The position numbers and the translations under genes are program-made. A stretch of DNA of 64,000 nt, from assembly GCF_011299575.1 (NCBI RefSeq), contig NZ_CP049863.1:868001-932000 (forward strand), in the 5' to 3' direction. Positions 8,498-30,448 of this stretch are shown one piece after another; the first letter of the stretch is position 1, and every line of letters starts with the position of its first letter. The notes below the pieces were generated by a model. The model worked only from the letters and a program-made list of their open reading frames with translations. It searched no databases and was not told the origin of the DNA. This DNA comes from Leucobacter viscericola (GTDB lineage Bacteria; Actinomycetota; Actinomycetes; Actinomycetales; Microbacteriaceae).

Positions 8498-8518
8498 CGC
8501 CGGTGATTATTTCCGGCG
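8498..8518 (+). promoter_or_regulatory. Palindromic operator candidate upstream of hmp (TTATTTCCGG motif)
   Basis: CGCCGG (8498-8503) and CCGGCG (8513-8518) form an inverted repeat around nine AT-rich bases. The 10-mer TTATTTCCGG (8507-8516) also occurs, in the same orientation to the gene, before narK1 and narK2. It ends 80 nt before the hmp ATG. Shared control of nitrate and NO genes by one regulator is inferred. Confidence 0.6.
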
Positions 8519-8596
8519 GATCCGCGAGCGCAGTTGTGTGGTCTGCGAGACGATGGCGAAGGTTATGTTCAACTCGCCATCAGGAGGCATCTACAC

Positions 8597-9805
8597 ATGG
8601 AACTAACACCACAATCAAGAGAAATTGTTGCTGCGACAGCGGGGGTCGTCGCAGAGCACGCAAACGCGATCACCAAGGTGTTCTACCCCGATATGTTTGC
8701 GGCGCACCCCGAGCTGCTTCGCATCTTCAACGTCGCCAATCAGGCGATCGGTGAGCAACCGCAGGCGCTCGCGGCCTCGGTCGTGGCCTTTGCCGTGCAG
8801 CTGATCGATCCGAACGCACCTGACTTCACACCCGTGATGCAGCGCATCGCGCACAAGCACGTGTCGCTCGGTATCAAGGCACCCGAGTACACGATCGTCG
8901 GCCACCACCTGTTGAAAGCAGTGAAGACCGTGCTCGGCGACGCCATCACCCCCGAGGTGCACAATGCGTGGGACGAGGTGTACTGGCTCTTCGGCACCGC
9001 GCTCATCGCTGAAGAAGCGAAGCTGTACGCACTCGGCGGCACCGATCCCGAGCACCCGTGGCGGCAGTACCGCGTTGTCGAGCGCTTCGAAGAGGCCGAC
9101 GAGGTCTTTTCACTGCTGCTCGCTCCAGTGTCGGGCGAGGTGCCAGCGCACCGCACCGGTCAGTACGTGGCGATCGCGGTTGACCTGCCGGGTGGCGCAC
9201 GCCAGCCGCGTCAGTACACGATCTCGTCGGGCCCGCGCGGTGATTCGCTGCGCGTGACCATCAAGCGTGTGCGGGGCGTCGACGGCAACCCCGACGGCCA
9301 GGTTTCGGGCTGGCTGTACGAAAACGCGAAGCCCGGCACGATCCTCGACGTGTCGCAGCCAGCCGGTGACGTCGTGCTCGACGAGTCAGACACTCCCCTC
9401 GTGTTTGTGTCCGCCGGCATCGGGATCACCCCGGTGGCCGCAATCATGGAGGATCTGTCGCGTCGGCAGCCCGACCGCAAGGTTCGTATGTTCCACGCCG
9501 ACAAGTCGCACAAGCAGCACGCGCTCTATGACGGCCTCCGCCGTCAGGTGCTCGCAATGAAGGACGCGAAGGCGCAGAACTGGTACGAAGACGGTGCAGA
9601 CTCTGCCCCGACCCTGCACCCGGCGCGCAGCGGCTTCATGGATCTCTCCGATGTCGAGGTGCCCGCCGAGGCCCACGCCTTCATGTGCGGCCCGCTGCCG
9701 TTCATGCAGATCGCACGCCACGAGCTGATCGCAAAGGGCATTCCGAGCGAGAACATTCACTACGAGGTGTTCGGGCCCGACCTCTGGGCGCAAAACCCGG
9801 TATAG
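8597..9805 (+). CDS. hmp: Flavohemoprotein nitric oxide dioxygenase
   Basis: 402 residues from the ATG at 8597, which has AGGAGG 9 nt upstream; a longer reading from 8534 has no such site. N-terminal globin domain (about 1-140) with B10-like Y30 and proximal His H88 in AHKHVSLGI. Then a ferredoxin-reductase FAD domain (RQYTISSG, about 217-224) and an NAD domain (GIGITPVAAI, about 275-284). It converts NO and O2 to nitrate using NAD(P)H. It guards against NO produced by the NirK and Nar enzymes encoded further on. It follows the FdhF-like gene by 131 bp and has its own candidate operator. Confidence 0.97.
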   Translation: MELTPQSREIVAATAGVVAEHANAITKVFYPDMFAAHPELLRIFNVANQAIGEQPQALAASVVAFAVQLIDPNAPDFTPVMQRIAHKHVSLGIKAPEYTIVGHHLLKAVKTVLGDAITPEVHNAWDEVYWLFGTALIAEEAKLYALGGTDPEHPWRQYRVVERFEEADEVFSLLLAPVSGEVPAHRTGQYVAIAVDLPGGARQPRQYTISSGPRGDSLRVTIKRVRGVDGNPDGQVSGWLYENAKPGTILDVSQPAGDVVLDESDTPLVFVSAGIGITPVAAIMEDLSRRQPDRKVRMFHADKSHKQHALYDGLRRQVLAMKDAKAQNWYEDGADSAPTLHPARSGFMDLSDVEVPAEAHAFMCGPLPFMQIARHELIAKGIPSENIHYEVFGPDLWAQNPV

Positions 9806-9835
9806 ATCCGGTCTGCACACCTCAGCGCCGACCCG

Positions 9836-9907
9836 TCAGCCGGTGCACACAACTCAGCCGGTTGGAAACCTGGATTTCCAACCGGCTGAGTTGTGTGCAC
9901 CGGCTGA
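9836..9907. terminator. 33-bp perfect hairpin between convergent hmp and fmdA
   Basis: Arms 9836-9868 and 9875-9907 are perfect inverted complements of 33 bases around a 6-nt CCTGGA loop. It ends just before the fmdA stop codon and lies 30 bp after the hmp stop, so it can serve both convergent transcripts. Each arm contains CAGCCGGT twice. There is no T-run on either side. The stem is much longer than the other terminators in the window. Confidence 0.75.
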
Positions 9908-9911
9908 AGCC

Positions 9912-11168: not shown

Positions 11169-11202
11169 CGCGGGTACTCCTTTGATCGTGAGGGGTGGGC
11201 GC

Positions 11203-11490: not shown

Positions 11491-11639
11491 TTGTGCTCCG
11501 TCCTCGCTCCGTCGCGTGCAGTACTTGACCATCTCGCCGTTGAGCTGATCGAGCACTACCTGGGACGCTATCGAGCTTCAAAAGAGAAGTCAACGATTTT
11601 TCACGGCCCTCAGGTCGGCAACTCCGCAGATGCGGCTCT

Positions 11640-12050
11640 ATGCTGATATTTATGACGCATTTCAGGATCCGTGAGGCCGCAGCCCTGGTTGGCGTGAGTA
11701 ATGACACCGTTCGCCGTTGGGTCACGGACGGGCACCTCGAGTCGTCCACCGACGCCTCGGGTCGCCAAGTGGTTTCGGGCCGCTCGTTGGCAGCCCGGGC
11801 CATCGCACTCGCGCCGTCGGTAGACGACGATGCCGTGGTGCGCCGTAGTGCCCGCAACCGCTTCACCGGTATCGTCACGGCCATCGAGATTTCTGGGCTC
11901 ATCGCTCAGGTCGAGCTGCAGTGCGGGCCGAATCGTGTTGTGTCACTCATGACCTCAGAAGCCGCGGTTGACCTCAATCTTGAGGTGGGATCCCGAGCCA
12001 CCGCGGTCGTCAAGGCCACCATGGTCATTATCGAAACTGAGCAGAGATAG
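11640..12050 (+). CDS. HTH-TOBE molybdate-responsive regulator
   Basis: 136 residues (132 if ATG 11652 is used; neither has a clear ribosome site, so a leaderless start is possible). An excisionase/MerR-like helix-turn-helix with RIREAAALVGVSNDTVRRWV occupies roughly residues 9-28, and a mono-TOBE (Mop) domain roughly 70-135. TOBE domains bind molybdate or tungstate, so it probably senses intracellular molybdate. It stands 7 bp before modA, as in many actinobacterial mod operons, and is expected to control modABC. Confidence 0.88.
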   Translation: MLIFMTHFRIREAAALVGVSNDTVRRWVTDGHLESSTDASGRQVVSGRSLAARAIALAPSVDDDAVVRRSARNRFTGIVTAIEISGLIAQVELQCGPNRVVSLMTSEAAVDLNLEVGSRATAVVKATMVIIETEQR

Positions 12051-12057
12051 GAACACA

Positions 12058-12897
12058 GTGAATCAAACGGACTTCCCCCGACACCCGGTTCGCACGATCC
12101 TGAAAACAGTCGCGCTTGCAGGAGCCGCTGCGCTCATGCTTTCGGGGTGCTCATCAGCGGCCACCCCAGATGCGAAACATCCGGAGCCTTCCGCAAGCAG
12201 CGAGCTCAGCGGCGAACTTTCCGTCTTCGCTGCCGCTTCGCTGCAGCCGGCGTTTGAGCCACTCAGTAAGGAGTTCACGAAGAAGCACCCCGGAGTGACC
12301 TTCTCCTTCAGCTTTGACGGTTCCTCGGCACTCGCCACGCAGATCTTGAGCGGAGCGCCAGCCGACGTGTTTGCTTCCGCCGACGAGGCAAATATGAAGA
12401 AGGTCGAGGAAGGCGGTTTGAACACCGGCGTTCCCACACTCTTTGCCACCAGCGAGCTTGTGATTGCGGTAGCCCCCGGAAATCCACTCGGGATCACCTC
12501 GCTCGCGGATCTCGCGAAGCCCACCAAAGACGGCGCCGATCCTACCGTGGTGATCTGCGCGGCCGAGGTTCCGTGTGGCGCAGCTTCGCACACACTTCTC
12601 GACCGAGACAAGGTCGCGCTCTCGCCCGCCAGCGAAGAGCAAAACGTGACCGCGGTGTTGACCCGGGTGCGGGAGGGAGAAGCCGATGCGGGTCTCGTCT
12701 ACGCCTCCGACGTGCAACGCTCGAACGGCGAGGTTGAGGGCATTCCGATCAAGGGTTCTGAAGACGCAGCCGGCAGCTACCTTGCAGTGCCGCTGCAGGG
12801 CTCAAAGCTGTCAGAAGAGGCCGCGGCCTTCGTCGACTTCTTGAAGTCCGAGGAAGCTCGCTCGCTACTCCTGAAGCTCGGGTTCCGAGCGCCGTGA
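12058..12897 (+). CDS. modA: Molybdate ABC transporter substrate-binding lipoprotein
   Basis: 279 residues from a GTG at 12058, 7 bp after the regulator stop and preceded by AGATAGG. A signal peptide ends in the lipobox LSGC (C31), so the protein is lipid-anchored outside the membrane. The mature part shows ModA hallmarks: LSVFAAASLQPAFEPL, then FDGSSALATQILSGAPADVF and SADEANMKK. It binds molybdate and hands it to ModB. Its stop overlaps the modB start (GTGA). Confidence 0.95.
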   Translation: MNQTDFPRHPVRTILKTVALAGAAALMLSGCSSAATPDAKHPEPSASSELSGELSVFAAASLQPAFEPLSKEFTKKHPGVTFSFSFDGSSALATQILSGAPADVFASADEANMKKVEEGGLNTGVPTLFATSELVIAVAPGNPLGITSLADLAKPTKDGADPTVVICAAEVPCGAASHTLLDRDKVALSPASEEQNVTAVLTRVREGEADAGLVYASDVQRSNGEVEGIPIKGSEDAAGSYLAVPLQGSKLSEEAAAFVDFLKSEEARSLLLKLGFRAP

Positions 12898-13699
12898 TCC
12901 GCACCACCACGCAGACCACCCTGCCGGCCACGCTCTGGGCGCCGGCAGGGTTGGCCGTTGCCGTTCTGCTGCTGCCGCTGGCCGCACTCTGTATTCGGGT
13001 CGATTGGGCCCGGGTGCCCGCAACGCTCGCCTCTCCCGAGGCGCTTGGGGCGCTCGGGCTCTCACTCTTCACAGCCAGTATTGCGACGGTGCTCTGCGTG
13101 CTGCTCGGGCTCCCACTCGCCTTCGTCATCGCGCGTGCGCCGGGCCCAATTGCAACCGCTCTGCGCGCGCTCACGACACTTCCGCTCGTGCTCCCACCGC
13201 TCGTTGGGGGCTCGCGCTGCTGTCACTACTCGGGCGGGGCGGTGTGCTCGGCGATTGGCTTGCAGAGTTCGGGATCAGGATCCCCTTCACCACCGCAGCC
13301 GTAGTGATCGCGCAGACCTTCGTGGCACTGCCGTTTTTGGTGATCGCTGTCGAGGGCGCACTGCGCAGCCTCGACAGCGGATACGAGCACGCGGCCGAGA
13401 GCCTGGGGGCACGGCCCTGGACAGTGCTGCGCCGGGTCACCCTTCCGCTGCTCGCGCCCAGTCTGACGGCAGGGGCGATCCTGTGCTTCACCCGAGCGCT
13501 CGGCGAGTTTGGGGCCACCGCCCTTTTTGCGGGGAACTCCCCCGGCACCACTCGCACCATGCCCCTCGCCATCTACACAGCGTTCAATGGGGCCGGTGTG
13601 ACCCAAGACACAGCCCTCACGCTCTCGCTACTGCTGGTTCTCGTGGCGATTGTCGCGCTCATTCTCATGCGAATACGACCGAGCGGAATCGCAGCATGA
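12894..13699 (+). pseudogene. modB: Molybdate ABC permease modB, frameshifted by one base
   Basis: The first reading frame gives about 105 residues of a good ModB N-terminus ending at TLPLVLPPLVGG. It then leaves frame, and the correct continuation (LALLSLLGRGGVLGDWLAEF onward, including EHAAESLGARPWTVLRRVTL, the EAA loop) lies in another frame up to 13699. The junction is the five-G run at 13206-13210; a sixth G restores V-G-G-L and one 268-residue permease. The remainder is well preserved and the overlaps with modA and modC are intact, so a sequencing error or a recent mutation is more likely than decay. ModB forms the membrane channel for molybdate. Confidence 0.88.
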
Positions 13700-14781
13700 G
13701 CGGGCTCGACTGCGCAGTTCAGGTGCAGCGCGGAGACTTTGAGCTCAACGCTGCTGTGCGGGCCGCACCCGGCGAGGTGCTCGCCGTGATCGGAGCGAAC
13801 GGCTCGGGCAAGTCGACGCTGCTCGGGGCCATCGCCGGCACTCACCCGATTGCTAACGGCTCGGTGCGCCTTGGTTCGCGTGTTTTGTGTTCCCGGGGAG
13901 GCCAGGCCCCCACGGTTTCGCTGCGCCGCTCGGCTCGTCGCGTGGGCTTCCTCGATCAGCGGGCCCGGCTGTTTCCTCATCTCAGCGCCCGCGCCAACAT
14001 TGCCTTCGGACCTCGGGCGCAGGGCGAAAGCCGACGCACCGCCGAGGCGACAGCCGAGGAGTGGCTGGTGCGAGTCGGACTGTCCGGTCGTGGTGATGCC
14101 AGGTCGAGCCAACTCTCCGGCGGCCAACAGCAACGAGTGGCTATTGCCCGCACGCTCGCGGCCGATCCCGCACTGCTGCTGATCGACGAGCCCTTTGCGG
14201 CGCTCGACGTAACGAGCAGCGGCGAGTTGCGAGAACTGATCGCGACGGAAGCGCGCCGCATGCAGATTCCCGTGGTGCTCGTCAGCCACGATCCAATCGA
14301 CCTGATCTCGCTTGCCTCTCGTGTTGTGGTACTTGAGGCTGGCGCGGTCACTCAGTCGGGAACAGTGGCGGAGGTACTCGGGTCACCCGAGACGCCGTTC
14401 GCAGCGGCATTCACCGGGCGCGTGCTACTGAGGGGCACTGCCTCAGATAGCGGAGTGCTGACACCTGACGCCCCGCTGCGGGAACTCCACGGGGTCGGGA
14501 AGCTACCCAGTCCCGGCACAGCGGCCAGCGCGAGTTTTGAGGCTGCGGCGGTGCGGGTGGTTCCGGATCCCGCGCCCTCATCAGCGACAGAGAATTCATG
14601 GAGCGGCACGATCAGCGCCATTTCGGCGGGGCCTGCCGGGGTACGACTCGAGTGCGCCGAGTGGCCAGGAATCTATGCGGAGCTACCGCTTTCCCGCGCC
14701 TTCGAACCGTGGATAACAGTGGGTGCGAGCGCACGCTGGGAGTTGCCCACGGAGGCAGTACGTTTTGGCACACCGCACTGA
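13696..14781 (+). CDS. modC: Molybdate ABC transporter ATP-binding protein
   Basis: 361 residues from ATG 13696, which overlaps the modB stop (ATGA). Walker A GANGSGKST is at residues 33-41, the Q-loop region FLDQRARLFPHLSAR near 86-100, the signature LSGGQQQRVAIARTLA near 135-150, and Walker B LLLIDEPFAALD near 155-166. A C-terminal TOBE domain (about 280-360) allows regulation by cytoplasmic molybdate. It powers ModAB-dependent molybdate import. An uninterrupted upstream extension of this frame over modB is not coding. Confidence 0.95.
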   Translation: MSGLDCAVQVQRGDFELNAAVRAAPGEVLAVIGANGSGKSTLLGAIAGTHPIANGSVRLGSRVLCSRGGQAPTVSLRRSARRVGFLDQRARLFPHLSARANIAFGPRAQGESRRTAEATAEEWLVRVGLSGRGDARSSQLSGGQQQRVAIARTLAADPALLLIDEPFAALDVTSSGELRELIATEARRMQIPVVLVSHDPIDLISLASRVVVLEAGAVTQSGTVAEVLGSPETPFAAAFTGRVLLRGTASDSGVLTPDAPLRELHGVGKLPSPGTAASASFEAAAVRVVPDPAPSSATENSWSGTISAISAGPAGVRLECAEWPGIYAELPLSRAFEPWITVGASARWELPTEAVRFGTPH

Positions 14782-14877
14782 TTAAAAACGGGCAGGAGCC
14801 AACGACAGCGTCGGTTCGCAGTGTTATGGTCGTGGGGCAGGCGCAAATGCGCGGCGAAACCCTCGGGAGGTGCGTGA

Positions 14878-15957
14878 GTGTCGAAGAATTCCGTTCCCAC
14901 CCCCCGGTCACGGCAACTCCCTTCGACGGGTCTCTTGGACGCCAGGCAGCGACAGCTACAAGACCTGCGCATCTCCGTGACCGACCGCTGCAACTTCCGC
15001 TGCGTCTACTGCATGCCAAAGGAATTGTTCGGGCGTGACTACCAGTTTCTCGAGCGCAGTGAGCTGCTCACCTTCGAGGAGATTGAGCGCATCGCCCGAG
15101 TCTCGGTGGGCTTGGGCGTGCGCAAGCTCCGATTGACCGGTGGTGAACCGCTGCTGCGGCGCGGCATCGAAGACCTCGTCTCCAAGCTTGCGGCGCTGCG
15201 CACTCCCGACGGCGAGCGCGTCGACCTGGCCCTCACCACAAACGGCTCGGCGTTGCCGGTCAAGGCTCAGGCTCTGCGCGAGGCCGGTCTGCAACGGGTG
15301 ACCATTTCGGTCGACTCGCTCAAAGAGGACCGTTTTCAGGCGATCAACGACGTGCGCTTCCCGCTTGCCCGGGTATTCGACGGCATCGCCGCCGCGGAAG
15401 CCGCGGGGCTCGGCCCGATCAAGATCAACGCGGTGATCAAGCGCGGCGTCAATGACGACGAGGTCCTAGCCCTCGCCGAACACTTCCGCGGCACCGGTCA
15501 CACACTGCGCTTCATCGAGTACATGGACGTTGGCACTTCAAACGGTTGGGAGATGGCCGACGTGGTGCCGTCTGCCGAAATTCTGAGCACCATCAACGCG
15601 GCACACCCCCTCGAACCGCTCACCCCCAGCCACCCGGGCGAGACCGCAAAGCGGTGGCGCTACGTCGACGGTGGCGGTGAGATCGGTGTGATCTCGAGCG
15701 TAACGGGGGCATTCTGCGGCACCTGCACCCGCGCCCGTATCTCGGTCGAGGGCAAACTCTTCACCTGCCTGTTCGCGACCGAGGGCACCGACCTGCGAGC
15801 ACTGCTCAGGGGTGGCGCAGACGACGAGGCGCTCGCCGCAGCGCTCACTGGCATCTGGAATGCCCGCGATGATCGCTACTCCGAGCTGCGCGCGCGGCTG
15901 TCTATCCCGGGCTCTCCCGCTCGCCAACGCATCGAAATGTCGTACATTGGCGGTTGA
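14878..15957 (+). CDS. moaA: GTP 3',8-cyclase MoaA
   Basis: 359 residues. A radical SAM enzyme that, with MoaC, turns GTP into cyclic pyranopterin monophosphate, the first step of molybdenum cofactor synthesis. The SAM-cluster motif CNFRCVYC gives C38, C42 and C45. The second cluster includes C280 and C283 in FCGTC and a further Cys near 297. The protein ends with the catalytic GG doublet. GTG start at 14878 follows GGGAGG at 7 nt. It is 96 bp after modC; that gap shows no recognised Moco riboswitch. Confidence 0.97.
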
Positions 15958-15964
15958 GCGGATC

Positions 15965-17116
15965 GTGAACCAGGGTGCCACCACCACTCGGAACCCGTTC
16001 TGGCGAATTCTCTTTTTCGCCCCCGCAGCAATCGCGCTGATCCTCGGTCTCGTTGCCGGGCTCAGACTTCTCAAGCTGTTCCCCGAGGATCAGCCCGACG
16101 TCTATACCGGGGTTCACGGCCCCCTGATGGTATTCGGGTTTATCGGCACACTTATCGCGCTCGAGCGCGCCGTTGCGATCCGCCGCTGGTGGGGTTACGC
16201 TTCGCCTGCGTTTCTTGGATCTGGCGGAATCGTGCTCGCCATCGGGCTCAATCACCGCGCCGGGCAGCTCTTGCTCACTCTTGGACTCGTTGTGTTTCTT
16301 GCGGTGTACCGAGTCATCTGGCAGCGACAGCACACCGCAGCAACCGCGATCCAAGCTCTCGGGGCCGTGGCCGCGCTGTGTGCGGTGCTGCTGTGGCTGG
16401 GTGGATCTGGTGTCCCTCAACAACTCCCGCTCATGGTGACGTTTCTAGTCTTGACCATCGCCGGTGAGCGACTCGAACTTGCACGGGCCGCGATCAAGAC
16501 TGGCCTGGCTGAGACTCTCGCGATCTGGATCGCTGGCGTAATGCTGGCCGCCGCCATCGTGCCGGTCCTCGCGCCGCTAGCTGGCCAGCCTGTGTTTGGA
16601 GCTGCGCTGATCGCTCAGGTGGCCTGGCTGTGGCGCTACGACATCGCCCGCAACACCATTCGAGGCACCGGTATCACTCGCTACATGGCATTCTGCCTAC
16701 TCAGCGGTTACATCTGGCTCGCGGTGTCGGGGCCCATCTGGGTCGGCCCCGCTTCGGCACTCTCCGGTCGCTTCTACGACGCCGCGATCCACACCGCTTT
16801 TATCGGTTTTGTGCTGTCGATGATCATGGCGCACGCGCCCGTGATTCTGCCCGCCGTGCTGCGCGTTTCGCTCCCCTATACCCCGCTCATGTACGGCCCT
16901 GCGGCGCTGCTGCAGCTGGGGCTCGCGATTCGTGTGGGCCTTGGTGATTTCTACGACATTGAGCTTGCGGTGCAAATCGGCGGCACCCTCAACGTGTTGG
17001 CAGTGATCCTGTTCGCCGCAACTGTCATTTTTGCCGCGATCCGCATGCGACGCGCTCGCGCCTCACACGCTCAAATCCAACCGCAATCGCAGAAAGTCCC
17101 CGATGCAGAGACGTAA
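15965..17116 (+). CDS. NnrS-like polytopic membrane protein
   Basis: About 383 residues from GTG 15965 (TTG 15947 is an alternative), almost entirely made of some 11-12 hydrophobic helices. Histidines sit at helix ends, as in NnrS-type haem/copper proteins: TGVHGPLMVFGFIGTLIALE (H51) and IHTAFIGFVLSMIMAHAPV near residues 275-293. Starts 7 bp after moaA and overlaps nirK by 14 bp, so it is co-expressed with the nitrite reductase. NnrS proteins are associated with NO stress and denitrification. A role in protecting from NO or serving NirK is inferred; family assignment is by pattern and context. Confidence 0.7.
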   Translation: MNQGATTTRNPFWRILFFAPAAIALILGLVAGLRLLKLFPEDQPDVYTGVHGPLMVFGFIGTLIALERAVAIRRWWGYASPAFLGSGGIVLAIGLNHRAGQLLLTLGLVVFLAVYRVIWQRQHTAATAIQALGAVAALCAVLLWLGGSGVPQQLPLMVTFLVLTIAGERLELARAAIKTGLAETLAIWIAGVMLAAAIVPVLAPLAGQPVFGAALIAQVAWLWRYDIARNTIRGTGITRYMAFCLLSGYIWLAVSGPIWVGPASALSGRFYDAAIHTAFIGFVLSMIMAHAPVILPAVLRVSLPYTPLMYGPAALLQLGLAIRVGLGDFYDIELAVQIGGTLNVLAVILFAATVIFAAIRMRRARASHAQIQPQSQKVPDAET

Positions 17117-19760: not shown

Positions 19761-19781
19761 ACCTATCTCGCGAACCGCGGC

Positions 19782-20339: not shown

Positions 20340-20368
20340 GTCGAAGACTCCACTAACGCACCAAAACA

Positions 20369-20689: not shown

Positions 20690-20725
20690 ACAATTCTCCC
20701 TTCAGGAGAAAACTCAAGCGAATAG

Positions 20726-21484
20726 TTACAGCCGCCGAAGCTTGTCTGGGTCCGGCGTTTCGATACTTTCCCAACCGCGACGCTTCTGCCGCGACCCCTG
20801 CTGCTCGTCGCGCGAGCGGTACACGATGTAGGGGCGGAACAGGTAACCAACCGGCGCAGAGAACACGTGCACCAGCCGGGTGAACGGCCACAGCATAAAC
20901 AGCGCCATCGCACACAGTACGTGCAGCTGGAACATGACCGGCACCGCTTCCATCAGCTCGGGCTGCGGCTGGAACACGATGAGGCTGCGCAGCCACGGCG
21001 AAATCGTGCCGCGGTACTCATATCCGGGGCCAAGCACCTGAAACATGAACGTCGCGATCGTGCCAAACAGCAGCGTCGCACCGAGAAAGGCGTACATCAC
21101 CTTGTCCATCGCGGTGGTTGCGAGCAACACGGCACCAGTCATGCGGCGGCGGTAGACCAGAATCACAAGCCCCACAAGTGTGAGAACGGCGGCAATCGAC
21201 CCCATCCAAGTGGCCCCGAGGTGATAGATGTGCTCGCTGATGCCGATGGCGTAGAGCCACTCGCGCGGGATCAAAAGCCCCACCACGTGACCGGCGATCA
21301 CCATCAAGATCCCGATATGGAACATCGGTGATCCCCAGCGCAGCAACTTACTCTCGTAGATCTGGCTCGACCGGGTGGTCCACCCGAACTTATCGTAGCG
21401 GTACCGCCAGATGTGGCCGACGACAAAGGCGGCGGCAGCGGCGTACGGAACGGCAACCCACAGCAGCACTCCGACGGGAGTCAT
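20726..21484 (-). CDS. narI: Respiratory nitrate reductase, gamma subunit (cytochrome b)
   Basis: 252 residues with five membrane helices. NarI oxidises menaquinol on the outer side and passes electrons through two b haems to NarH. The membrane segments carry histidines in the expected places: VVGHIWRYRYDKFGW (about 21-35), FHIGILMVIAGHVVGL (about 55-70) and LHVLCAMALFMLWPFTRLVH near 190-210. The start overlaps the narJ stop by 4 bp. Confidence 0.97.
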   Translation of the reverse strand: MTPVGVLLWVAVPYAAAAAFVVGHIWRYRYDKFGWTTRSSQIYESKLLRWGSPMFHIGILMVIAGHVVGLLIPREWLYAIGISEHIYHLGATWMGSIAAVLTLVGLVILVYRRRMTGAVLLATTAMDKVMYAFLGATLLFGTIATFMFQVLGPGYEYRGTISPWLRSLIVFQPQPELMEAVPVMFQLHVLCAMALFMLWPFTRLVHVFSAPVGYLFRPYIVYRSRDEQQGSRQKRRGWESIETPDPDKLRRL

Positions 21485-22197
21485 CGCAGGACCTCCTCGC
21501 GATTTGGATCGGTTTGGGAAAACGGTTTCAAAGCCCCGAGAAAACTCACACCAACAGTCTCGGTCGGCGGTCCCTCATTGATCAGGTCGAGATAGCGCTC
21601 GCGCGTACCGGGGTCCATCTCGGGCAGGGTCAGGCAGATCGCCTCAACTACGAAGGCGTACGGGCTCTCGTACTCTCGCAGGCCCGCCCGCAGCACCTCG
21701 ATGCCCTCACGGTGCGCGGCAAGCAGCTCCTGCGCAATCGGAGAATCGCTCAGAGCCGAGAACTCAAGCACAACCGGCAGAAAGTCGGGCAGCTCAGGGG
21801 CATCGAACTCCCAGCCTGCAGCCCGATACGCCTCCTGAAACGTGACGAGCGCCATGCCTCGACGGCGAGTGTCGCCAGCCGCGTAGTAACTTAGGTACAG
21901 GCAGCACTTACGCTTCAGGTCGAAGGTGGTGACGTACTCCTTCTGCCGCTGCACAGTATCCTTCACCACCTGCGCGTCGAAGTAACGCTGGAAGGCAGCT
22001 GCCACCGGTTCTGGCAGCTGAGCAACCAGCTTCTCCAGTCGCGGCAGCTGCTGCTCGTACTCCGCACTCGGATAGTCGAGCAGATGCGAGGCGACAATGT
22101 GGGCGATGGATCGCTGCGCCTGATCCATTGCCACGATTTCAAGTCGCTCCGGCGCAATCTTCTGCCGCAGCGGCCCCAAGACCCGGGTGCTACTCAT
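21481..22197 (-). CDS. narJ: Nitrate reductase assembly chaperone NarJ
   Basis: 238 residues. A soluble helical TorD/NarJ-type chaperone that holds NarGH until the Mo cofactor is inserted and NarI is joined. The N-terminal half has ASHLLDYPSAEYEQQLPRL, and the middle carries the family pattern DLKRKCCLYLSYYAAGDTRRRG followed by a helix beginning MALVTFQEAYRAAGWE. Its ATG overlaps the end of narH by 8 bp. An internal ATG (22128) is possible but lacks a ribosome site. Confidence 0.96.
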   Translation of the reverse strand: MSSTRVLGPLRQKIAPERLEIVAMDQAQRSIAHIVASHLLDYPSAEYEQQLPRLEKLVAQLPEPVAAAFQRYFDAQVVKDTVQRQKEYVTTFDLKRKCCLYLSYYAAGDTRRRGMALVTFQEAYRAAGWEFDAPELPDFLPVVLEFSALSDSPIAQELLAAHREGIEVLRAGLREYESPYAFVVEAICLTLPEMDPGTRERYLDLINEGPPTETVGVSFLGALKPFSQTDPNREEVLR

Positions 22198-23851
22198 TGT
22201 TCTCGCCGCCCTCAGTCTTCTCCGGTGGGAACATGCCCTTCGTGCCGTCCCCGTCTCCGTTCCAGTTCAGCAGGTTGACGCGACCACGGGTCGACGGCAA
22301 CCGAGCGTCTGTCTGCCGCTTCTTTGTGAGTTGGAAGGTCTCAGCCGAGGCCGACACCTGCGGTCCGCTGCCGCCACCGAAGGGGTTGGGTCCGCCCATG
22401 CCGGGGCCACCATCCACGTCGAGCGAGCAGCCCATCTCTTCGAGATCCTTTGCTTGCTCGGCGTGCGCGGCCGGGATCACGTTGCGATCCTCGTATTTCG
22501 CGATCGCGAGCAAACGGTACATCTCTTCGATCTTCTCGCCGGTCATACCAACGGCAGACGCGATGCGCTCGTCACGCTCCTCCTCCAGGTTGATGCGTCG
22601 CATATACGAGCGCATCGCCGCGAGCTTCTTCAGCGATTCGTTCACCGGGTCGATATCCCCCGCGGTAAACAGTCCCGCGAGGTACTCGATCGGGATCCGC
22701 AGCTTGTCAATGGCGGCGAAGAGTGTCCGTGCGTCTTCACCGTCGTTACCCGAACTGGCGACCACATCAACAACGGGTGACAGCGGCGGGATGTACCAAA
22801 CCATCGGCATGGTGCGGTATTCGGGATGCAGCGGCAGAGCCACCCGGTAGTCGTTGATGAGCTTCCAGATCGGGCTGTTCTGTGCGGCCTCGATCCAGTC
22901 CTCGGGTATCCCCTCGGCCCGCGCCGCCTCAACAACCGCGGGGTCGTTCGGGTCGAGAATAATGTCGCGCTGTGCCTCGAGCAGGTCCTGCTCGTTTTCA
23001 ACGGAGGCGGCCTCGGCAACGCGGTCTGCGTCGTAGAGCACGAGGCCTAGATACCGCAGGCGCCCAACGCAGGTCTCCGAGCACACGGTCGGCAGGCCGA
23101 CCTCGAGCCGCGGATAGCACAGCGTGCACTTCTCGGCCTTGCCCGTCTTGTGGTTGAAGTAGACCTTCTTGTAGGGGCAACCCGAGACGCACATGCGCCA
23201 GCCGCGGCACGCGTCCTGATCCACCAGCACGATGCCGTCTTCGCTGCGTTTGTACATCGCGCCCGAGGGGCACGAAGCGACACACGAGGGGTTCAGGCAG
23301 TGCTCGCAGATGCGCGGCAGGTAGAACATGAAGCTCTGCTCGAACTCCATCGCCACGTGCTCGCTCATGTGTTTAAGGATCGGATCATCGGCGATAGTCT
23401 CGGGCGAGCCACCGAGGTTGTCGTCCCAGTTCGCCGACCACTTGATCTTCATGTCTTCGCCCGTGAGCAGGCTCTTGGGCCGGGCCACCGGGGTGTGCGC
23501 GCCCTGCGGTGCGTTCAGCAGGTTGTCGTAGTCGTAGGTCCACGGCTCGTAGTAGTCGTGCACCTCCGGCAGCTTCGGGTTCGAGAAGATACTTGAGAGC
23601 TTCTTCAAGCGCCCGCCCGAGCGCAGTTTCAACCGGCCGCGCTTATTGCGCACCCAGCCGCCGCCCCACTTCTCCTGGTCTTCGTAGCCGCGCGGGTAAC
23701 CAACTCCCGGGCGGGTCTCAACATTGTTGAACCAGACGTACTCAACGCCGCTGCGGTTCGTCCAAGCTTGCTTGCAGGTGACGCTGCAGGTGTGGCACCC
23801 GATGCACTTGTCGAGATTCATGATCATCGACATCTGAGCCATGACCTTCAT
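22190..23851 (-). CDS. narH: Respiratory nitrate reductase, beta subunit (Fe-S)
   Basis: 553 residues. Carries the electron-transfer clusters between NarI and NarG. The first ferredoxin motif CIGCHTCSVTC gives C16, C19, C22 and C26; further cysteine groups appear in CEHCLNPSCVASCP, CRGWRMCVSGCP (with the Trp typical of the 3Fe-4S site) and CTLCYPR. The C-terminal extension contains a Gly/Pro-rich segment near 485-505. The start overlaps the narG stop by one base (TGATG), so the two are translationally coupled. Confidence 0.98.
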   Translation of the reverse strand: MKVMAQMSMIMNLDKCIGCHTCSVTCKQAWTNRSGVEYVWFNNVETRPGVGYPRGYEDQEKWGGGWVRNKRGRLKLRSGGRLKKLSSIFSNPKLPEVHDYYEPWTYDYDNLLNAPQGAHTPVARPKSLLTGEDMKIKWSANWDDNLGGSPETIADDPILKHMSEHVAMEFEQSFMFYLPRICEHCLNPSCVASCPSGAMYKRSEDGIVLVDQDACRGWRMCVSGCPYKKVYFNHKTGKAEKCTLCYPRLEVGLPTVCSETCVGRLRYLGLVLYDADRVAEAASVENEQDLLEAQRDIILDPNDPAVVEAARAEGIPEDWIEAAQNSPIWKLINDYRVALPLHPEYRTMPMVWYIPPLSPVVDVVASSGNDGEDARTLFAAIDKLRIPIEYLAGLFTAGDIDPVNESLKKLAAMRSYMRRINLEEERDERIASAVGMTGEKIEEMYRLLAIAKYEDRNVIPAAHAEQAKDLEEMGCSLDVDGGPGMGGPNPFGGGSGPQVSASAETFQLTKKRQTDARLPSTRGRVNLLNWNGDGDGTKGMFPPEKTEGGENNE

Positions 23852-26800
23852 CAGTAATCGACCTCCTGGCTGCGGCGACGGATCACGGTGACCTCATCAC
23901 GTTGGTTTCCCGTCGGCCCCAGGTAGTTGAAGGCGAACGAGAGCTGGGCATATCCACCAATCAGGTGGCTGGGTTTGAGAAGCACCCGCGTAAGCGAGTT
24001 GTGAATGCCACCGCGCAGGCCGCTGGTCTCGGTGCGGGGCACATCGACCGTGCGGTCCTTCGCGTGGTACATGTACACGGTGCCCTCGGGCATACGGTGC
24101 GAAACGATCGCGCGGGCCACCACAACTCCGTTGCGGTTGTAAGACTCAATCCAGTCGTTGTCGCGCACACCGATCTTGTCGGCGTCCTGCGGGCTCATCC
24201 AGATCGTGGGGCCGCCTCGCGAGAGCGACAGCATAAACAGGTTGTCCTGGTACTCCGAGTGAATCGACCACTTGGAGTGCGGGGTGAGGTATCGAACTGC
24301 AACCTCGGCACGGCCCTCGGAGCCCGGTGCCCCCGTGGCTTCCTGCGATCCGACAATCGAATCACCGAACAACCGGTGCATGTCGAGCGGCGGCCGGTAG
24401 ATCGGCAGTCCCTCACCGAGCTCACTCATCCAGTCGTGGTCGAGGAAGAAATGCATGCGACCGGTCAGCGTGTGCCACGGCTTCAGGTGCTCGACGTTGA
24501 CGGTGAACGCACTGTAGCGGCGGCCACCGTGCTCGGATCCCGACCACTCGGGCGAGGTGATCACACTCATGGGGCGCGCCTGCACATCGGCAAATGTGAT
24601 CCGGTTGCCCTCGTGATCTTCCGAGAGCTGCGTGAACTTCTGACCAGTGTGCTTCTCGAGGGCGCGGAAGCCCTCGGTTGCAAGGCGACCGTTGCTAGTG
24701 CCGGAGAGGGCGAGGATCGTGTCACACACTTTCACGTCGGTATCGAGCAGCGGTAGCCCTTCAGTTACCGGGTGCTTCGCCGTGCCGTTCAGGCGCTTCA
24801 GCTTCTCGACCTCTGGGGTTGGGTCGTACTTGATCCCCTTGGTAATCATGCCGAGTTTGGTCGCGAGCGGCCCGAGCGCCTTCATTTTCGCACCGATCGC
24901 GGTGTAGTCACGCTCAACCACGATCAGCTTCGGCATGGTGACACCGGGCACGAGTGGTTGGTCGTGCAGCACCGTACCGTGTGGGGTGGCGAGCGCGTCG
25001 GGTGTATCGTGCAGCAGCGGGGCCGCAATCAGATCCTTACGTGTGCCGAGGTGTTCGACCGCCATCTCACTGATCGAATCGGCGAGATTGTTGAAGATCT
25101 CAAAGTCGGTCTTCGTTTGCCACGGTGGTTTGATCGCCGGGTTGAAGGAATGGATGAACGGGTGCATGTCCGTCGACGACAGATCGTGCTTTTCGTACCA
25201 GGTGGCCGCAGGGAACACGATGTCCGAGAACAGCGTGGTGCTGGTCATACGGAAGTCGGTTGTGACGAGCAAGTCGAGTTTGCCCTCGGGGGCTTCGTCA
25301 TGCCACTTGATCGAGCGCGGTCTGCGTGCCTCGTCGGCCTCGCTCGCGCGAATCGCCGAGTCGGTGCCAAGCAGGTGCTTCAGGAAGTACTCGTTGCCCT
25401 TACCCGAGGATCCGAGAATGTTTGCGCGCCACACGTTCAGCACGCGCGGAAAATTCTCGGGTGAATCGGGATCCTCGCACGCGTACTTCAGGCTACCGTC
25501 TTGCAAGCTCTGCACAACGTAGTCGGCGGGCTCCATGTCCGCGGCATCCGCATCGTCGACAAGGTCGAGCGGGTTACGGTCGTATGTCGGGTAGCTTGGC
25601 ATCCAACCGCGCTTGGCCGAATCTACGAGGCAGTCGGCGGTAGTGCGGTCGGCGAAGTCACCTTTGGCGAGCGGGGAGGCGAGCTGGTCGGCCGGCAGGC
25701 CGTCGTAGCGCCACTGGTCGGTAGCCATGTACCAGAACGCGGTGCCGATCATGGCGCGACCCGGGCGCACCCAGTCCCCCGCGGTGCCGTACTGTGTGTA
25801 CCCCGTGACCGGGCGCACCTTCTCTTGGCCGACGTAGTGGGCCCAGCCACCGCCGTTCACGCCCTGGCAACCCGTCATGGTGGTGAGCGCGAGGAAGGTG
25901 CGGTAAATGGTGTCGGAGTGGAACCAGTGGTTCGTGCCTGCCCCCATCAGAATCATCGAGCGGCCCTTCGACTGCTCGGCATTCTGCGCAAACTCGCGGC
26001 CGATCCGCTCAGCCTTCTCGGCGGGAACGGAGGTGATCTCCTCCTGCCAGGCGGGCGTTCCGGGTGAGCTCGCATCGTCGTAGCCCTGCGCCCATACGCC
26101 GGGCAGGCCCTCGCGGCCAATGCCGTACTGCGCGAGCATCAGGTCGAACACGGTCGTGACTGTATGGCCGTCAACAACCGTAATTGGCACGCCACGACGC
26201 ACGATGCCCGCACCGCCCGCCTGCTCGTTACCCGCGTCGGGAGCAACATCGAAGCGGGGCAGGTCGAGCGGTGCGGCCTCGCCGCTCCACTTCGGCGAAT
26301 CCATGATGGACAGCCGGGGATCGGTATCGCCGAGATCGAGGTTCCACTTGCCCTCGTCTTCAGCGCTGAATCGGTGGCCGAGTGAGCCGTTGGGCACAAC
26401 GGGAAGACCCTGCTGGTCGAGCAGCACGGTCTTGAACTTGTCGTTCGTGGTGTGCTCGTCCGTGTCAGCCAGGTCTGAGGCAGTTAAGAACTTGCCGGGC
26501 ACCCACGCATCACCGCGGCGCTCGAGCGCCACGAGGTAGGGCGCATCGGCGTAGGTCTTCATGTAGTGCTCGAAGTACGGGGTGCGGCGATCCACGAAGA
26601 ATTCTTTGAGGATCACGTGGCCCATCGCCATCGCGAGCGCCCCGTCCGTGCCGGGGTGCGGCGCGAGCCACTCGTCAGCAAATTTTGTGTTGTCGGCGTA
26701 GTCGGGCGAGACCGTAATGACTTTCTGACCCTTGTAGCGGGCCTCGGTCATGAAGTGAGCGTCCGGTGTGCGGGTGACCGGAACGTTCGATCCCCACATC

Positions 26801-27597
26801 ATCAGGTACGAGGAGTTCCACCAGTCAGCCGACTCAGGCACGTCGGTCTGGTCGCCAAACACCTGCGGGCTTGCGACCGGCAGGTCCGCGTACCAGTCGT
26901 AGAACGACTGCATGGTACCGCCGAGCAAATTGATAAAGCGCGCACCGGCGCCGTGCGACACCATCGACATCGCGGGAATCGGTGAGAAACCCGCGACGCG
27001 GTCGGGGCCGTACTTCTTGATCGTGTGCACGTGCGCGGCGGCGACCATCTCGTTCGCCTCGTCCCACGTTGCGCGCACAAGGCCACCCTTGCCGCGGGCG
27101 CGCTTGTAGCTGCGGCTGGTCTCGGGATCTTCGGTCACCGCAGCCCAGGCAAGCACGGGATCGCCGAGGCGCGCCTTTGCCTCGCGGTAGGCGGAAAGTA
27201 GCACACCCCGCACGTAGGGATAGCGCACGCGGGTTGGCGAGTAGGTGTACCAGCTGAAGGCCGCACCACGTGGGCAGCCGCGGGGCTCGTACTCCGGTGA
27301 GTCCGGCCCGACAGTCGGATAATCCGTCTGCTGGGTCTCCCACGTGATGATGCCGTCTTTGACGTACACCTTCCACGAGCAGGATCCTGTGCAGTTCACA
27401 CCGTGGGTTGAGCGCACAACTTTGTCGTGCGACCAGCGGTCACGGTAGAAGGAGTCGCCCTTGCGGCCACCCTCGAGAAAAAGGGAACGGAGGTCTTTGG
27501 AGGTTTCACCGCGGTGCAGGAATCGTCCAAGCGATAGGAGCGAGTCCTCAAGAGGACCGTCGGTTGCTGGGGGTACTGGTTTGGTGTCGCGTGACAT
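23851..27597 (-). CDS. narG: Respiratory nitrate reductase, alpha subunit
   Basis: 1248 residues, the usual NarG length. It reduces nitrate to nitrite at a bis-MGD molybdenum site on the cytoplasmic face. The FS0 4Fe-4S site is H65, C69, C73 (HGVNCTGSC) and C108 (RGCPRG). The downstream region YLMMWGSNVPVTRTPDAHF and the C-terminal SIHSEYQDNLFMLSLSRGGP fit the family. ATG 27597 has AGGA at 6 nt and lies 14 bp after narK1, so narK1-narGHJI is one operon, as in Corynebacterium narKGHJI. No TAT signal is present, as expected for cytoplasmic-side NarG. Confidence 0.99.
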   Translation of the reverse strand: MSRDTKPVPPATDGPLEDSLLSLGRFLHRGETSKDLRSLFLEGGRKGDSFYRDRWSHDKVVRSTHGVNCTGSCSWKVYVKDGIITWETQQTDYPTVGPDSPEYEPRGCPRGAAFSWYTYSPTRVRYPYVRGVLLSAYREAKARLGDPVLAWAAVTEDPETSRSYKRARGKGGLVRATWDEANEMVAAAHVHTIKKYGPDRVAGFSPIPAMSMVSHGAGARFINLLGGTMQSFYDWYADLPVASPQVFGDQTDVPESADWWNSSYLMMWGSNVPVTRTPDAHFMTEARYKGQKVITVSPDYADNTKFADEWLAPHPGTDGALAMAMGHVILKEFFVDRRTPYFEHYMKTYADAPYLVALERRGDAWVPGKFLTASDLADTDEHTTNDKFKTVLLDQQGLPVVPNGSLGHRFSAEDEGKWNLDLGDTDPRLSIMDSPKWSGEAAPLDLPRFDVAPDAGNEQAGGAGIVRRGVPITVVDGHTVTTVFDLMLAQYGIGREGLPGVWAQGYDDASSPGTPAWQEEITSVPAEKAERIGREFAQNAEQSKGRSMILMGAGTNHWFHSDTIYRTFLALTTMTGCQGVNGGGWAHYVGQEKVRPVTGYTQYGTAGDWVRPGRAMIGTAFWYMATDQWRYDGLPADQLASPLAKGDFADRTTADCLVDSAKRGWMPSYPTYDRNPLDLVDDADAADMEPADYVVQSLQDGSLKYACEDPDSPENFPRVLNVWRANILGSSGKGNEYFLKHLLGTDSAIRASEADEARRPRSIKWHDEAPEGKLDLLVTTDFRMTSTTLFSDIVFPAATWYEKHDLSSTDMHPFIHSFNPAIKPPWQTKTDFEIFNNLADSISEMAVEHLGTRKDLIAAPLLHDTPDALATPHGTVLHDQPLVPGVTMPKLIVVERDYTAIGAKMKALGPLATKLGMITKGIKYDPTPEVEKLKRLNGTAKHPVTEGLPLLDTDVKVCDTILALSGTSNGRLATEGFRALEKHTGQKFTQLSEDHEGNRITFADVQARPMSVITSPEWSGSEHGGRRYSAFTVNVEHLKPWHTLTGRMHFFLDHDWMSELGEGLPIYRPPLDMHRLFGDSIVGSQEATGAPGSEGRAEVAVRYLTPHSKWSIHSEYQDNLFMLSLSRGGPTIWMSPQDADKIGVRDNDWIESYNRNGVVVARAIVSHRMPEGTVYMYHAKDRTVDVPRTETSGLRGGIHNSLTRVLLKPSHLIGGYAQLSFAFNYLGPTGNQRDEVTVIRRRSQEVDY

Positions 27598-27611
27598 GTC
27601 GTTTCCTGTCC

Positions 27612-28928
27612 TTAGCTCGGCATCTCAGCATTGCGGCGGGTGTAGTAGTGCCAGGCGAGCCAGGTGCAGATCGCACAGAACACGGCACAACCGATGAAGA
27701 AAGAGGTCGGGTCGATGAACGAAAGCGAGACGCCAACAATGAAGGGCCCGAAGGCGGCGAGCGCCGCGGTCCAGCCGATGGCTCCGCCTGCCTGGCGTTT
27801 CGGGAAGATCATGGGCATCTGTTTGAACGTGCCAGCGTTCGTGAACCCCGCGAAGAAGAAAATGATGAGCATGCCAGTCAAAAAGCCCCAGAACTCGTCC
27901 ACCGATGACGGCGAGAGGAAGAAGGCTGTAACGACGGTGCCTGCGGTCATACCGATGCCACCAACGAAGGTGAAGACCGCGCCACCAAACTTGTCGCAGA
28001 GAGGACCACAGAGCGCACGAACCAGTGCGCCCAGCAGCGGGCCGATGAACGCAAAGGCGAGCGGGTTGGGTCCGTCTTCGAAGCCGCCGTAGACACTACG
28101 AATGATGAGCCCCATCTGCGCCGCAAGGCCACTGTAGAGGCCAAACGACATCATGTAGAGCGCCGTCATAATCCAGGTGTGCTTCAGCCGGAAGATGTCG
28201 AACTGCTCGCGGAAATTAGCCTTGACCGGCACTCGCCGCAGGTACACAACCGCGAGCACTACGGCGAGCACAGCCCACGGGATCAGCACGAGACCCGCGT
28301 TGTGCAGCCAGATCAGCGCACCGTCGTTCTTCTGCTGCGGTGCGAGGTAGGAGGTGCCGAGGAGCCCAAAGCCAATGACCCACGGGATGAGAAATTGAAC
28401 GAGCCCGATGCCGAAGTTGCCGATTCCGGCCTGCAGGCCGAGAGCGGTGCCCTGTAGGCGCTTCGGAAAGAAGTAGCTCGTCGAGGCCATAAATCCTGAG
28501 AAGCTACCACCTGCGATGCCCGAGGCGATCGCCAACATGATCAGAACGGAGTACGAGGTTGTGGAATCCTGTACCGCCATTGCCCAGCCGCCCATCGGAA
28601 TGAGCAAAAAGAGGGTGTTGTAGACCACGAGGTTTCGGGTACCGATGATGGGCGGCAGAAACAGGAGAAGGAAGCGGCTCACTCCGGCTGCCAGGCCCGG
28701 CATCGCCGCGAGCCAGTACAGCTGTCCGTCGGTGAGGTTGAAGCCGATCTCGTTCAATCGCGGTGCGATAGCACTCACCAGGTACCAGGTGGAGAAGCCG
28801 AGCATGAGCGCGTACGTCGTGATCGACAGGGTACGCCAGGCAAGCTTGCTGTCCCAGGTAGCGGCGTTTTCTGGATCCCAGTTCGAGAGATCCTTTTTGA
28901 GCGTGGTTGACATGGTTTCGGTCGACAT
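27612..28928 (-). CDS. narK: Nitrate/nitrite transporter, NNP family (narK1)
   Basis: 438 residues, 12 predicted helices, major facilitator fold. The ATG at 28928 is chosen because GAGGAG precedes it by 6 nt. The nitrate signature appears as LGLQAGIGNFGIGLVQFLIP near 165-184, and SFSGFMASTSYFFPKR precedes it. As first gene of the nar operon it supplies NarG with nitrate and/or exports nitrite. About 96 nt upstream is the TTATTTCCGG motif shared with hmp and narK2. Confidence 0.95.
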   Translation of the reverse strand: MSTETMSTTLKKDLSNWDPENAATWDSKLAWRTLSITTYALMLGFSTWYLVSAIAPRLNEIGFNLTDGQLYWLAAMPGLAAGVSRFLLLFLPPIIGTRNLVVYNTLFLLIPMGGWAMAVQDSTTSYSVLIMLAIASGIAGGSFSGFMASTSYFFPKRLQGTALGLQAGIGNFGIGLVQFLIPWVIGFGLLGTSYLAPQQKNDGALIWLHNAGLVLIPWAVLAVVLAVVYLRRVPVKANFREQFDIFRLKHTWIMTALYMMSFGLYSGLAAQMGLIIRSVYGGFEDGPNPLAFAFIGPLLGALVRALCGPLCDKFGGAVFTFVGGIGMTAGTVVTAFFLSPSSVDEFWGFLTGMLIIFFFAGFTNAGTFKQMPMIFPKRQAGGAIGWTAALAAFGPFIVGVSLSFIDPTSFFIGCAVFCAICTWLAWHYYTRRNAEMPS

Positions 28929-29022
28929 GCTGTCTCCTCGTGCGATTCTTCGGCGACCCTCTAAGAAGCCCCGAACTCTGTATTCAGTCAAGCGAAGAGC
29001 CCCGGCTCACTCAACGAGCAAA

Positions 29023-29040
29023 GGCCGGAAATAAGGTTTG
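29023..29040 (-). promoter_or_regulatory. TTATTTCCGG operator candidate upstream of narK1
   Basis: Read toward narK1 the sequence is TTATTTCCGG (29034 to 29025), identical to the motif before narK2 and hmp and in the same orientation. The flank here is less symmetrical (CAAACC on one side, CC on the other). It ends 96 nt before the narK1 ATG, in the gap after the narK2 stop. Confidence 0.6.
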
Positions 29041-29052
29041 GACCCTCGGGGG

Positions 29053-30339
29053 CTACCCGGCATCACGGTCCGCGGTGGCCGGGTGTGCGCGGTCGCGATG
29101 GTCGTGTGAGACAACCACCTGCATCCACACCAAAGAGATGAGCGCAATGCCAAACAGCACCCCGAACGTTGCGCTCTGCATGCTCAAACCGGTCCACTCC
29201 TGCGCGTAGGCGAATAATGGCGGTAGCGCCACAGCGCCGAGCCCACCGATCAGGCCGACAAGCCCACCGACCGCACCAACGTCTTTAGGGAAGTACTCGG
29301 GGATGTGCTTGAAGACGGCTGCCTTACCCACCCCCATGGCGATCCCCACTACAAAGAGCAATACTGTGAATACCCACACGTTGCTCGGCACCATCATCGC
29401 GCCAGTCGCGAGCACCATGGTGCACAGCGAGATGTACATGATTGGCCTGGCACCGTGCTTGTCAGAGAGCCAGCCCCCGACTGGGCGAAGCAGTGACGCT
29501 GGAAAGATGAATAGCGCTGTGAGGAGTGCAGCCAACCCCAGGTTCAGACCGAAGTTCTTGACGTAAAAAGTGGGCATCCATCCTGAGAGCGCGACGTACG
29601 CACCAAAGACGACGACGTAGTAAAGCGAGAACCGCCACACGCGCACCTTCTTAAGCACCCGAAACTGTTGCGCCAGCGGCACTCCCGCGCCGGGTGTGAT
29701 GTCGGGTCGCGGGGAGCCATACCAAGTAATCGCGGCCATAACCAGAAGCAGTAACGCATACATGACCGGAATAAATCGCCAGCCGCCCGGAATCAACCCG
29801 CCAAGAAACCCTCCTGCAGGCAATACCGCGAGCAACAGCGGCGCCACCAGTTTGGTCACCGAAGCGCCCACGTTGCCAGCGCCAAAGATGCCGAGCGCGA
29901 GCCCCTGCTGCGACTTTGGGTACCACGCGCTCACCCACGAGACACCGATGGTGAAGCTGTTGCCCGCCAAACCAATGAGAAACGCGAAGATGAGCAGTTG
30001 TGTATAAGAGTCAGCGTAGATAACGAAGTACGTCGGGATCGCGCTGACCACCATGAGTGCGGCCATCACACTGCGGCCGCCCCAGCGGTCCGCCATGATT
30101 CCTGTGATGAGCCGCCACAGCGACCCGTTCAGCGCCGCGACCGAAATAAGCCAGGCGACCTGGGAGTTTGTGAGCCCAAATTCCTCCGCGATCGGTACGG
30201 AGAGCACACCAAATTGCAGCCACACCGCAAACATGAGCGTGAAGCCGATGGTACCGATCCAAAGCACTTTGCTGCGATCTCGCGTCGACCGAGATCGCTG
30301 AACTACGGTCGAAGAAGTGTCAGATAACGTCTGTGCCAT
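29053..30339 (-). CDS. Nitrate/nitrite transporter, NNP family (narK2)
   Basis: 428 residues with 12 helices. ATG 30339 follows GAGGTGG at proper distance; an upstream GTG (30348) sits on the ribosome site itself. Nitrate-porter motifs appear as GLAGNSFTIGVSWVSAWYPK and the glycine-rich LGIFGAGNVGASV (about 138-150). It is more like the short NarK2/NasA type than narK1. It is separated from narK1 by 124 bp containing the shared operator motif, so it may be a separate transcript. Two porters of different type often divide nitrate/H+ symport and nitrate/nitrite exchange; which does what is not decided by the sequence. Confidence 0.94.
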   Translation of the reverse strand: MAQTLSDTSSTVVQRSRSTRDRSKVLWIGTIGFTLMFAVWLQFGVLSVPIAEEFGLTNSQVAWLISVAALNGSLWRLITGIMADRWGGRSVMAALMVVSAIPTYFVIYADSYTQLLIFAFLIGLAGNSFTIGVSWVSAWYPKSQQGLALGIFGAGNVGASVTKLVAPLLLAVLPAGGFLGGLIPGGWRFIPVMYALLLLVMAAITWYGSPRPDITPGAGVPLAQQFRVLKKVRVWRFSLYYVVVFGAYVALSGWMPTFYVKNFGLNLGLAALLTALFIFPASLLRPVGGWLSDKHGARPIMYISLCTMVLATGAMMVPSNVWVFTVLLFVVGIAMGVGKAAVFKHIPEYFPKDVGAVGGLVGLIGGLGAVALPPLFAYAQEWTGLSMQSATFGVLFGIALISLVWMQVVVSHDHRDRAHPATADRDAG

Positions 30340-30430
30340 GAAGCCCACCTCGATGAGATTGGGCGGCGGGACCGCCCGCCTTTAGGTGACTTCAGGTTAT
30401 GGTTTGACGGCGACGAATGGCTGGCTCAAA

Positions 30431-30448
30431 AACCGGAAATAACCGGTT
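30431..30448 (-). promoter_or_regulatory. Palindromic TTATTTCCGG operator candidate upstream of narK2
   Basis: AACCGG (30431-30436) and CCGGTT (30443-30448) form a perfect inverted repeat around AAATAA. Read toward narK2 it contains TTATTTCCGG, the motif shared with hmp and narK1, ending 93 nt before the ATG. It lies between the narK2 start and the stop of the ArnR-like regulator gene. Confidence 0.65.

Follow-up and report, generated by a model that had tools for sequence, protein, structure and literature searches.

Comparison of sequences points to a small nitrate, NO and molybdenum regulon in Leucobacter viscericola, in which a conserved candidate operator is joined by a linked regulator built like ArnR. 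The finding is real, and it goes beyond the initial annotation, which had noted one 10-mer before hmp, narK1 and narK2 and read it as a nitrate/NO regulon operator. Relatives show that this 10-mer, TTATTTCCGG, corresponds to the promoter-proximal half of a wider putative operator of ~16 bp with a consensus of about CCGTGAWT|AWTCACGG. The idea that such an operator is served by the 231-aa protein encoded at 30466..31161 (minus strand) is supported by comparative evidence, namely linkage, co-occurrence and a conserved motif, from which we infer binding.

Three copies of one 10-mer precede hmp and the narK genes

The observation of a 10-mer in three copies was confirmed. In the window (the whole 64,000-nt stretch of DNA that was analysed), identical copies of TTATTTCCGG are found at 8507-8516 on the plus strand and at 29034-29025 and 30442-30433 on the minus strand, with no fourth copy, and the distances to the ATG of hmp, narK1 and narK2 are 80, 96 and 93 nt, respectively, as annotated. 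None of 100 dinucleotide-preserving shuffles of the window contained a copy, and from base composition one expects 0.055 copies in the window and 3.2 in the genome. The genome, a single contig of 3,697,133 bases, contains five copies, compared to two matches of the reversed-pattern control. Both copies outside the window are within coding frames, one of 202 aa and one for an E1-E2 ATPase; thus, all three non-coding copies precede nitrate/NO genes. When one mismatch is allowed, there are 86 matches in the genome compared to 77 for the control, and this lack of a clear excess of degenerate copies would fit a chance repeat, or a plain promoter element with no dedicated regulator; however, the shuffles, the intergenic placement, the conservation across genera and the recurrent promoter geometry described below make that explanation highly improbable. 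A large degenerate regulon in this genome was rejected, based on the same one-mismatch counts. The pattern WTWTTYMCGGY has 27 genome matches versus 17 for its reversed control, with the best-placed new site before mop, and an Rfam search of 8200-33300 returned no match.

The genes downstream of the three copies are readily assigned. The hmp gene (8597..9805, plus strand) encodes a flavohaemoprotein (NO dioxygenase) with Pfam globin and NAD-binding matches above cut-off and a match to NCBIfam PRK13289.1 (E 2e-103) below its cut-off. The narGHJI genes span 20726..27597 on the minus strand (narG 23851-27597, narH 22190-23851, narJ 21481-22197 and narI 20726-21484), each above its NCBIfam cut-off. 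On the same strand are two nitrate/nitrite transporter genes, narK1 (27612..28928), directly before narG, and narK2 (29053..30339), which match TIGR00886 with E values of 8e-72 and 1e-67, in both cases below the cut-off of that model. A separate gene at 17031-19760 (plus strand) encodes a 909-aa protein whose C-terminal part (residues 643-906) resembles nitrite reductase of the copper-containing type (E 3e-44 for TIGR02376, under the cut-off of that model) and could be a local source of NO; no site was found before this gene among the 25 best matrix matches in the window.

The symmetric candidate operator differs from the annotated palindrome

It had been proposed that the 10-mer sits in CCGG-flanked palindromes at hmp and narK2. 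Inverted CCGG...CCGG repeats are indeed present, but their spacers differ (9 at hmp versus 6 at narK2), as do their registers, and the symmetric form in relatives is the consensus given above, not the CCGG repeats. In L. coleopterorum, in which hmp is 98% and the regulator 77% identical to those of the window, GATTATTTCCGG (8505..8516, plus strand, in the window) persists at an unchanged distance from hmp, but the adjoining upstream sequence differs, and with it the left CCGG arm. The CCGG palindrome was therefore rejected as the operator, given the unequal spacers and the unconserved left hmp arm. In this species, the 77% regulator relative loses frame before the third cysteine (loci L007 and L092), and the moaE match is split in the assembly, which is either real decay or an assembly error.

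In seven other Leucobacter hmp promoters a similar box occupies the same place, CCGTGAATAATCACGG being exact in two and present in looser forms in the rest, and in six of these seven a more distant regulator (~30% identical) is convergent to hmp. We searched 30 of 54 Leucobacter genomes for the regulator (25 at first, then five more together with two of the first again). Among the 25, a homologue (E ≤1e-20) was found in seven, all of which have full-length hmp or clear narK, and in none of the 18 others; over all 30, it was found in 8/8 genomes with full-length hmp and in 4/4 with clear narK. These homologues are mostly of the type that is ~30% identical to the regulator of the window, which itself is the only homologue found in its own genome. 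The seventh of the hmp genomes counts against the regulator-operator explanation, as its similar box accompanies a mere fragment of hmp and it has no well-scoring regulator match. No close narK2 was found in the 53 other Leucobacter genomes, although three have a homologue with 34-35% identity. Upstream of Leucobacter narK-like genes at three loci, we noted a motif copy that points to narK together with a similar copy that points away from it.

The regulator and the motif are linked to nar genes in other genera

A profile scan of genome contigs yielded at least 382 confirmed relatives of the regulator, and we analysed the best 80 loci, which were thus selected for a gene related to that of the 30466-31161 protein. 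Of these 80 loci, 49 contain narG, which is downstream of the regulator in 47, either within 1.1 kb (38 loci) or with narK between them (nine loci). Among the best 80, the putative operator precedes narG or narK in Cryobacterium, Agromyces, Cellulomonas and Sanguibacter; in Microbacterium and related loci that lack nar genes, the motif precedes either cydA (Pfam Cyt_bd_oxida_I) or the regulator gene itself, and in two other nar-less loci it precedes a DUF2249 gene. We extracted 71 upstream regions of narG, narK1 and hmp, and 59 have the motif, a count that is circular in that these regions also served to train the matrix; 58 are on the sense strand and one, in a shared divergent region, is on the opposite strand. 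Of the 12 regions that lack the motif, nine belong to operon-internal genes. The motif is absent before one hmp (L103), one narG (L145) and one narK1 (L167), which counts against the regulator-operator explanation.

A relative at a profile E value ≤1e-12 is present in at least 121 of 394 genomes sampled from the class. In nine or more Cryobacterium loci, a second regulator, ~27-32% identical, precedes the nar-linked regulator, either immediately or at a distance of a few kb, and in nine loci from other actinomycete families a related regulator has a DUF2249 gene, nar genes or both in its vicinity.

Motif presence follows presence of the regulator in three small comparisons

If the motif is read by the linked regulator, its presence should follow that of the regulator. 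Three small comparisons favour this link, short of proof, and in the order and class samples 'without regulator' means no match among at most 20 or at most 7 candidates scored per genome, such that absences may be misses. Within the family, with the genome of the window set aside, ATTATTCACGG is found in 4/5 genomes with the regulator and 0/4 without (P = 0.04), and three of the four family matches precede the regulator gene or cydA. In the order sample, ATTATTCACGG is found in 18 of 149 genomes, at 23 places, for four of which the gene context beyond overlapping frames is known; because promoter matches also overlap frames, such overlap alone proves little. The motif precedes cydA in 6/13 family genomes with a close regulator, compared to 0/9 without and 0/2 with a distant regulator (P = 0.023, or 0.013 if the two distant-regulator genomes are included), as scored with a matrix that includes cydA sites of other Microbacteriaceae. 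Similarly, the motif precedes narG in 5/17 cases with the regulator and 0/13 without (P = 0.043; 30 loci from 50 genomes with narG). These comparisons ignore phylogeny, use score thresholds of 12 and 9 bits that were set after the scores were known, and cover 1.5 kb of upstream sequence, beyond which some narK promoters lie.

Several observations count against the regulator-operator explanation: one narG genome without regulator scores 8.2 bits, which matches the level of narK1 in the window, and six further cydA promoters of regulator genomes lack the motif. The cydA of the window strain is also without it (best score 1.4 bits). At four loci, cydA promoters lacking the nar-type motif have TTCTAC...GTAGAA-like boxes, which suggests another bd oxidase regulator.

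These comparisons bear on whether another transcription factor, for instance one of the CRP/FNR type, acts on the motif, with the linked regulator acting elsewhere or additionally. Such a factor might account for the activator-like geometry described below although the best analogue of the regulator is a repressor, and the 80 loci were, after all, selected for presence of the regulator; moreover, GlxR also activates narK in Corynebacterium glutamicum (PMC12343034). However, the motif tracks the regulator in all three comparisons, and several Microbacterium carry it before the regulator gene itself. The half-sites of CRP/FNR operators are separated by N6, compared to N4 in the TGA-N4-TCA of the candidate operator. 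We consider control by another factor improbable, though less so than a chance repeat.

Molybdenum genes as additional putative targets

Two further targets of the regulator, mop-modA and moaD-moeA, are probable and were overlooked by the initial annotation. We scored the window with a matrix from other genera, for which 69 sites had been reduced to 33 non-redundant ones, and the three best sites were those before mop (22.0 bits), moa/moe (17.8 bits) and hmp (13.8 bits), a ranking that is less circular than the count obtained with a matrix trained on the same regions. The reversed matrix reaches 15.3 bits, and of 100 Markov simulations none had a best score as high as that of mop, eight one as high as that of moa/moe and 59 one as high as that of hmp. 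The case for the mop-modA site as a putative target is therefore strong and that for the moaD-moeA site suggestive, while the evidence for the hmp and narK sites is the repeated 10-mer, together with conservation in the case of hmp. By this matrix the hmp site alone is not unusual and the narK sites score low (8.1 bits for narK1; narK2 is not among the 25 best window matches), which counts against the regulator-operator explanation, as does the absence of the moa/moe site in L. coleopterorum.

The first putative site, GATTTTTCACGG (11595..11606, plus strand), precedes a gene for a Mop/TOBE molybdate-binding protein with an HTH (11640..12050, plus strand; start probably 11652), in which TOBE is above and Mop just below cut-off. 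It is followed on the same strand by modA (12058-12897; TIGR01256 above cut-off), a gene for a 607-aa ABC-ATPase-containing protein (12958-14781), which together (12058..14781) probably serve molybdate uptake, and moaA (14878..15957). The second site, operator-like (32877..32889, plus strand; the minus strand reads TCGTGAAT|AATAACGG), is between divergent moeB and moaD. On the minus strand, upstream of the regulator gene, are moaE and moeB (31292..32838); on the plus strand are moaD (32935-33201; ThiS family, named from its context), moeA (33198-34496), moaC (34489-34983) and a gene for a MoCF-domain protein (34968-35462).

Candidate operators are usually found at a fixed distance from -10-like hexamers

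The candidate operator is usually 32-33 nt upstream of a -10-like hexamer. Among 36 non-redundant sites, 10 of 15 occurrences of TAnnnT and 22 of 44 of nAnnYT are at CGG+32/33, and TTG is exactly at CGG+10 in 17 of the 36 sites. Four of six promoters in the window have such a hexamer at 32/33: hmp (GACGAT, 8549-8554, CGG+32), narK2 (TAACCT at CGG+33, downstream of the putative operator copy at 30433..30442, minus strand), mop (TATGCT, 11639-11644) and moaD (TAGCAT, 32923-32928, +33). The exceptions, which count against the regulator-operator explanation, are narK1, whose putative operator copy (29025..29034, minus strand) has TTGAGT at CGG+10 and no -10-like hexamer at the usual place, and moeB, with TAGACT at +23. 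In mop and moaD, possible leaderless ATGs (11652 and 32935) are each at +45, seven nt past the -10, as expected of leaderless transcripts. A -10 at 32-33 nt together with an ATG at +45 puts the 3' end of the operator at about -46 and the midpoint of the operator at about -53.5.

Activators typically have their sites at a set distance immediately upstream of the -35 region, which repressors do not need. This geometry suggests activation or dual control over plain repression of the ArnR type, and with respect to the sign of control we slightly favour activation. The same regulator might instead act on the same operator as a pure repressor released by NO; this is the published mode of ArnR in C. 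glutamicum, which shares the targets (narK/narG and hmp), domain layout and cysteine pattern and reportedly keeps narKGHJI and hmp repressed up to the nitrosylation of its [4Fe-4S] cluster (PMC12343034). That the 32-33 nt from operator to -10 recur across genera and before different targets, with the operator upstream of the -35 region, argues against pure repression, which we regard as rather unlikely, although well ahead of control by another factor.

The regulator resembles ArnR in build

The structure model of the regulator (pLDDT 88.2) has an ArsR/MarR-like winged helix at the N-terminus, although the fold search used the whole model and bears only on the winged helix, not the C-terminal domain. 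In the C-terminal part, the three cysteines and the His of the pattern C156-X13-C170-x2-H173...C202 are invariant in 19/19 aligned relatives, and in 22/22 of a second alignment with largely the same sequences.

The initial annotation had likened the targets to those of ArnR, and this analogy stands for targets, domain layout and cysteine pattern, with ArnR compared by description; the promoter geometry speaks against plain repression of the ArnR type. According to PMC12343034, ArnR is a protein with an ArsR/MarR-type winged helix and three C-terminal cysteines (Cys179, 193 and 223) and a conserved His, it is encoded beside the nar operon, and it represses narKGHJI and hmp until NO nitrosylates a [4Fe-4S] cluster. 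The window regulator likewise has the winged helix, three C-terminal cysteines and conserved His, its gene is linked to the nar operon both in the window and in the narG-containing relative loci. Candidate operators precede both narK and hmp, with promoter geometry that looks activator-like. The first cysteine spacing is X13 in both proteins, but the second is X31 here versus X29 in ArnR, and the gene is upstream of the nar genes here but downstream for ArnR (PMC12343034). Further differences are the extra predicted targets (mod and moa/moe here, cydA and DUF2249 in relatives) and the activator-like placement of the candidate operator.

The regulator differs from other known systems. SufR, a [4Fe-4S] winged-helix protein (PMC12343034), shares the winged helix, but the genes linked to the window regulator are nitrate/NO genes, and the match to SufR_cyano (NCBIfam) is weak (30.1 bits versus a cut-off of 178.8), outside SufR membership. 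NsrR, an NO-sensing hmp repressor of the Rrf2 family (PMC12343034), is alike in its hmp target and expected NO role, but the domains here are of the ArsR/MarR type, with no Rrf2 model among the domain matches at E ≤0.001. By domain matches, FNR/CRP-type nar activators are a different protein family. Such activators would explain upstream sites at a fixed distance as well as joint control of nar, cyd and molybdenum genes.

Taken together, the three-cysteine winged-helix regulator would have an operator of ~16 bp, with the 10-mer as its promoter-proximal half, and a dimer of the regulator would bind at about -53.5, just upstream of promoters that have a -10 32-33 nt downstream of the operator and a -35 that is often weak or not recognisable. 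By analogy to ArnR, an Fe-S cluster may report NO or oxygen, and the regulator would switch on, or gate, jointly nitrate transport and reduction, removal of NO by Hmp, molybdate uptake and molybdopterin synthesis. We give this explanation as a whole an even chance of being correct.

Direct homologues of FNR and NsrR are missing from C. glutamicum, which relies on ArnR in their place (PMC12343034). In the open-licence literature, we found no description of such an operator in Micrococcales, and ArnR is the one regulator of similar build that we found described for nar. A broader reading, which we put forward tentatively and at somewhat less than even chance, is that the regulator may belong to an unrecognised Fe-S winged-helix activator family, widespread in Actinomycetes, which would take the role of FNR/NsrR in these bacteria and jointly switch on nitrate respiration, molybdenum supply, bd oxidase and NO defence from one operator position at ~-53.5, with at least the molybdenum operons leaderless. 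The results suggest that several actinobacterial families have regulators built like ArnR whose operator can be read from the sequence; they provide testable targets, from nar, hmp, mod and moa/moe to cydA and DUF2249, and raise the question of activation versus repression.
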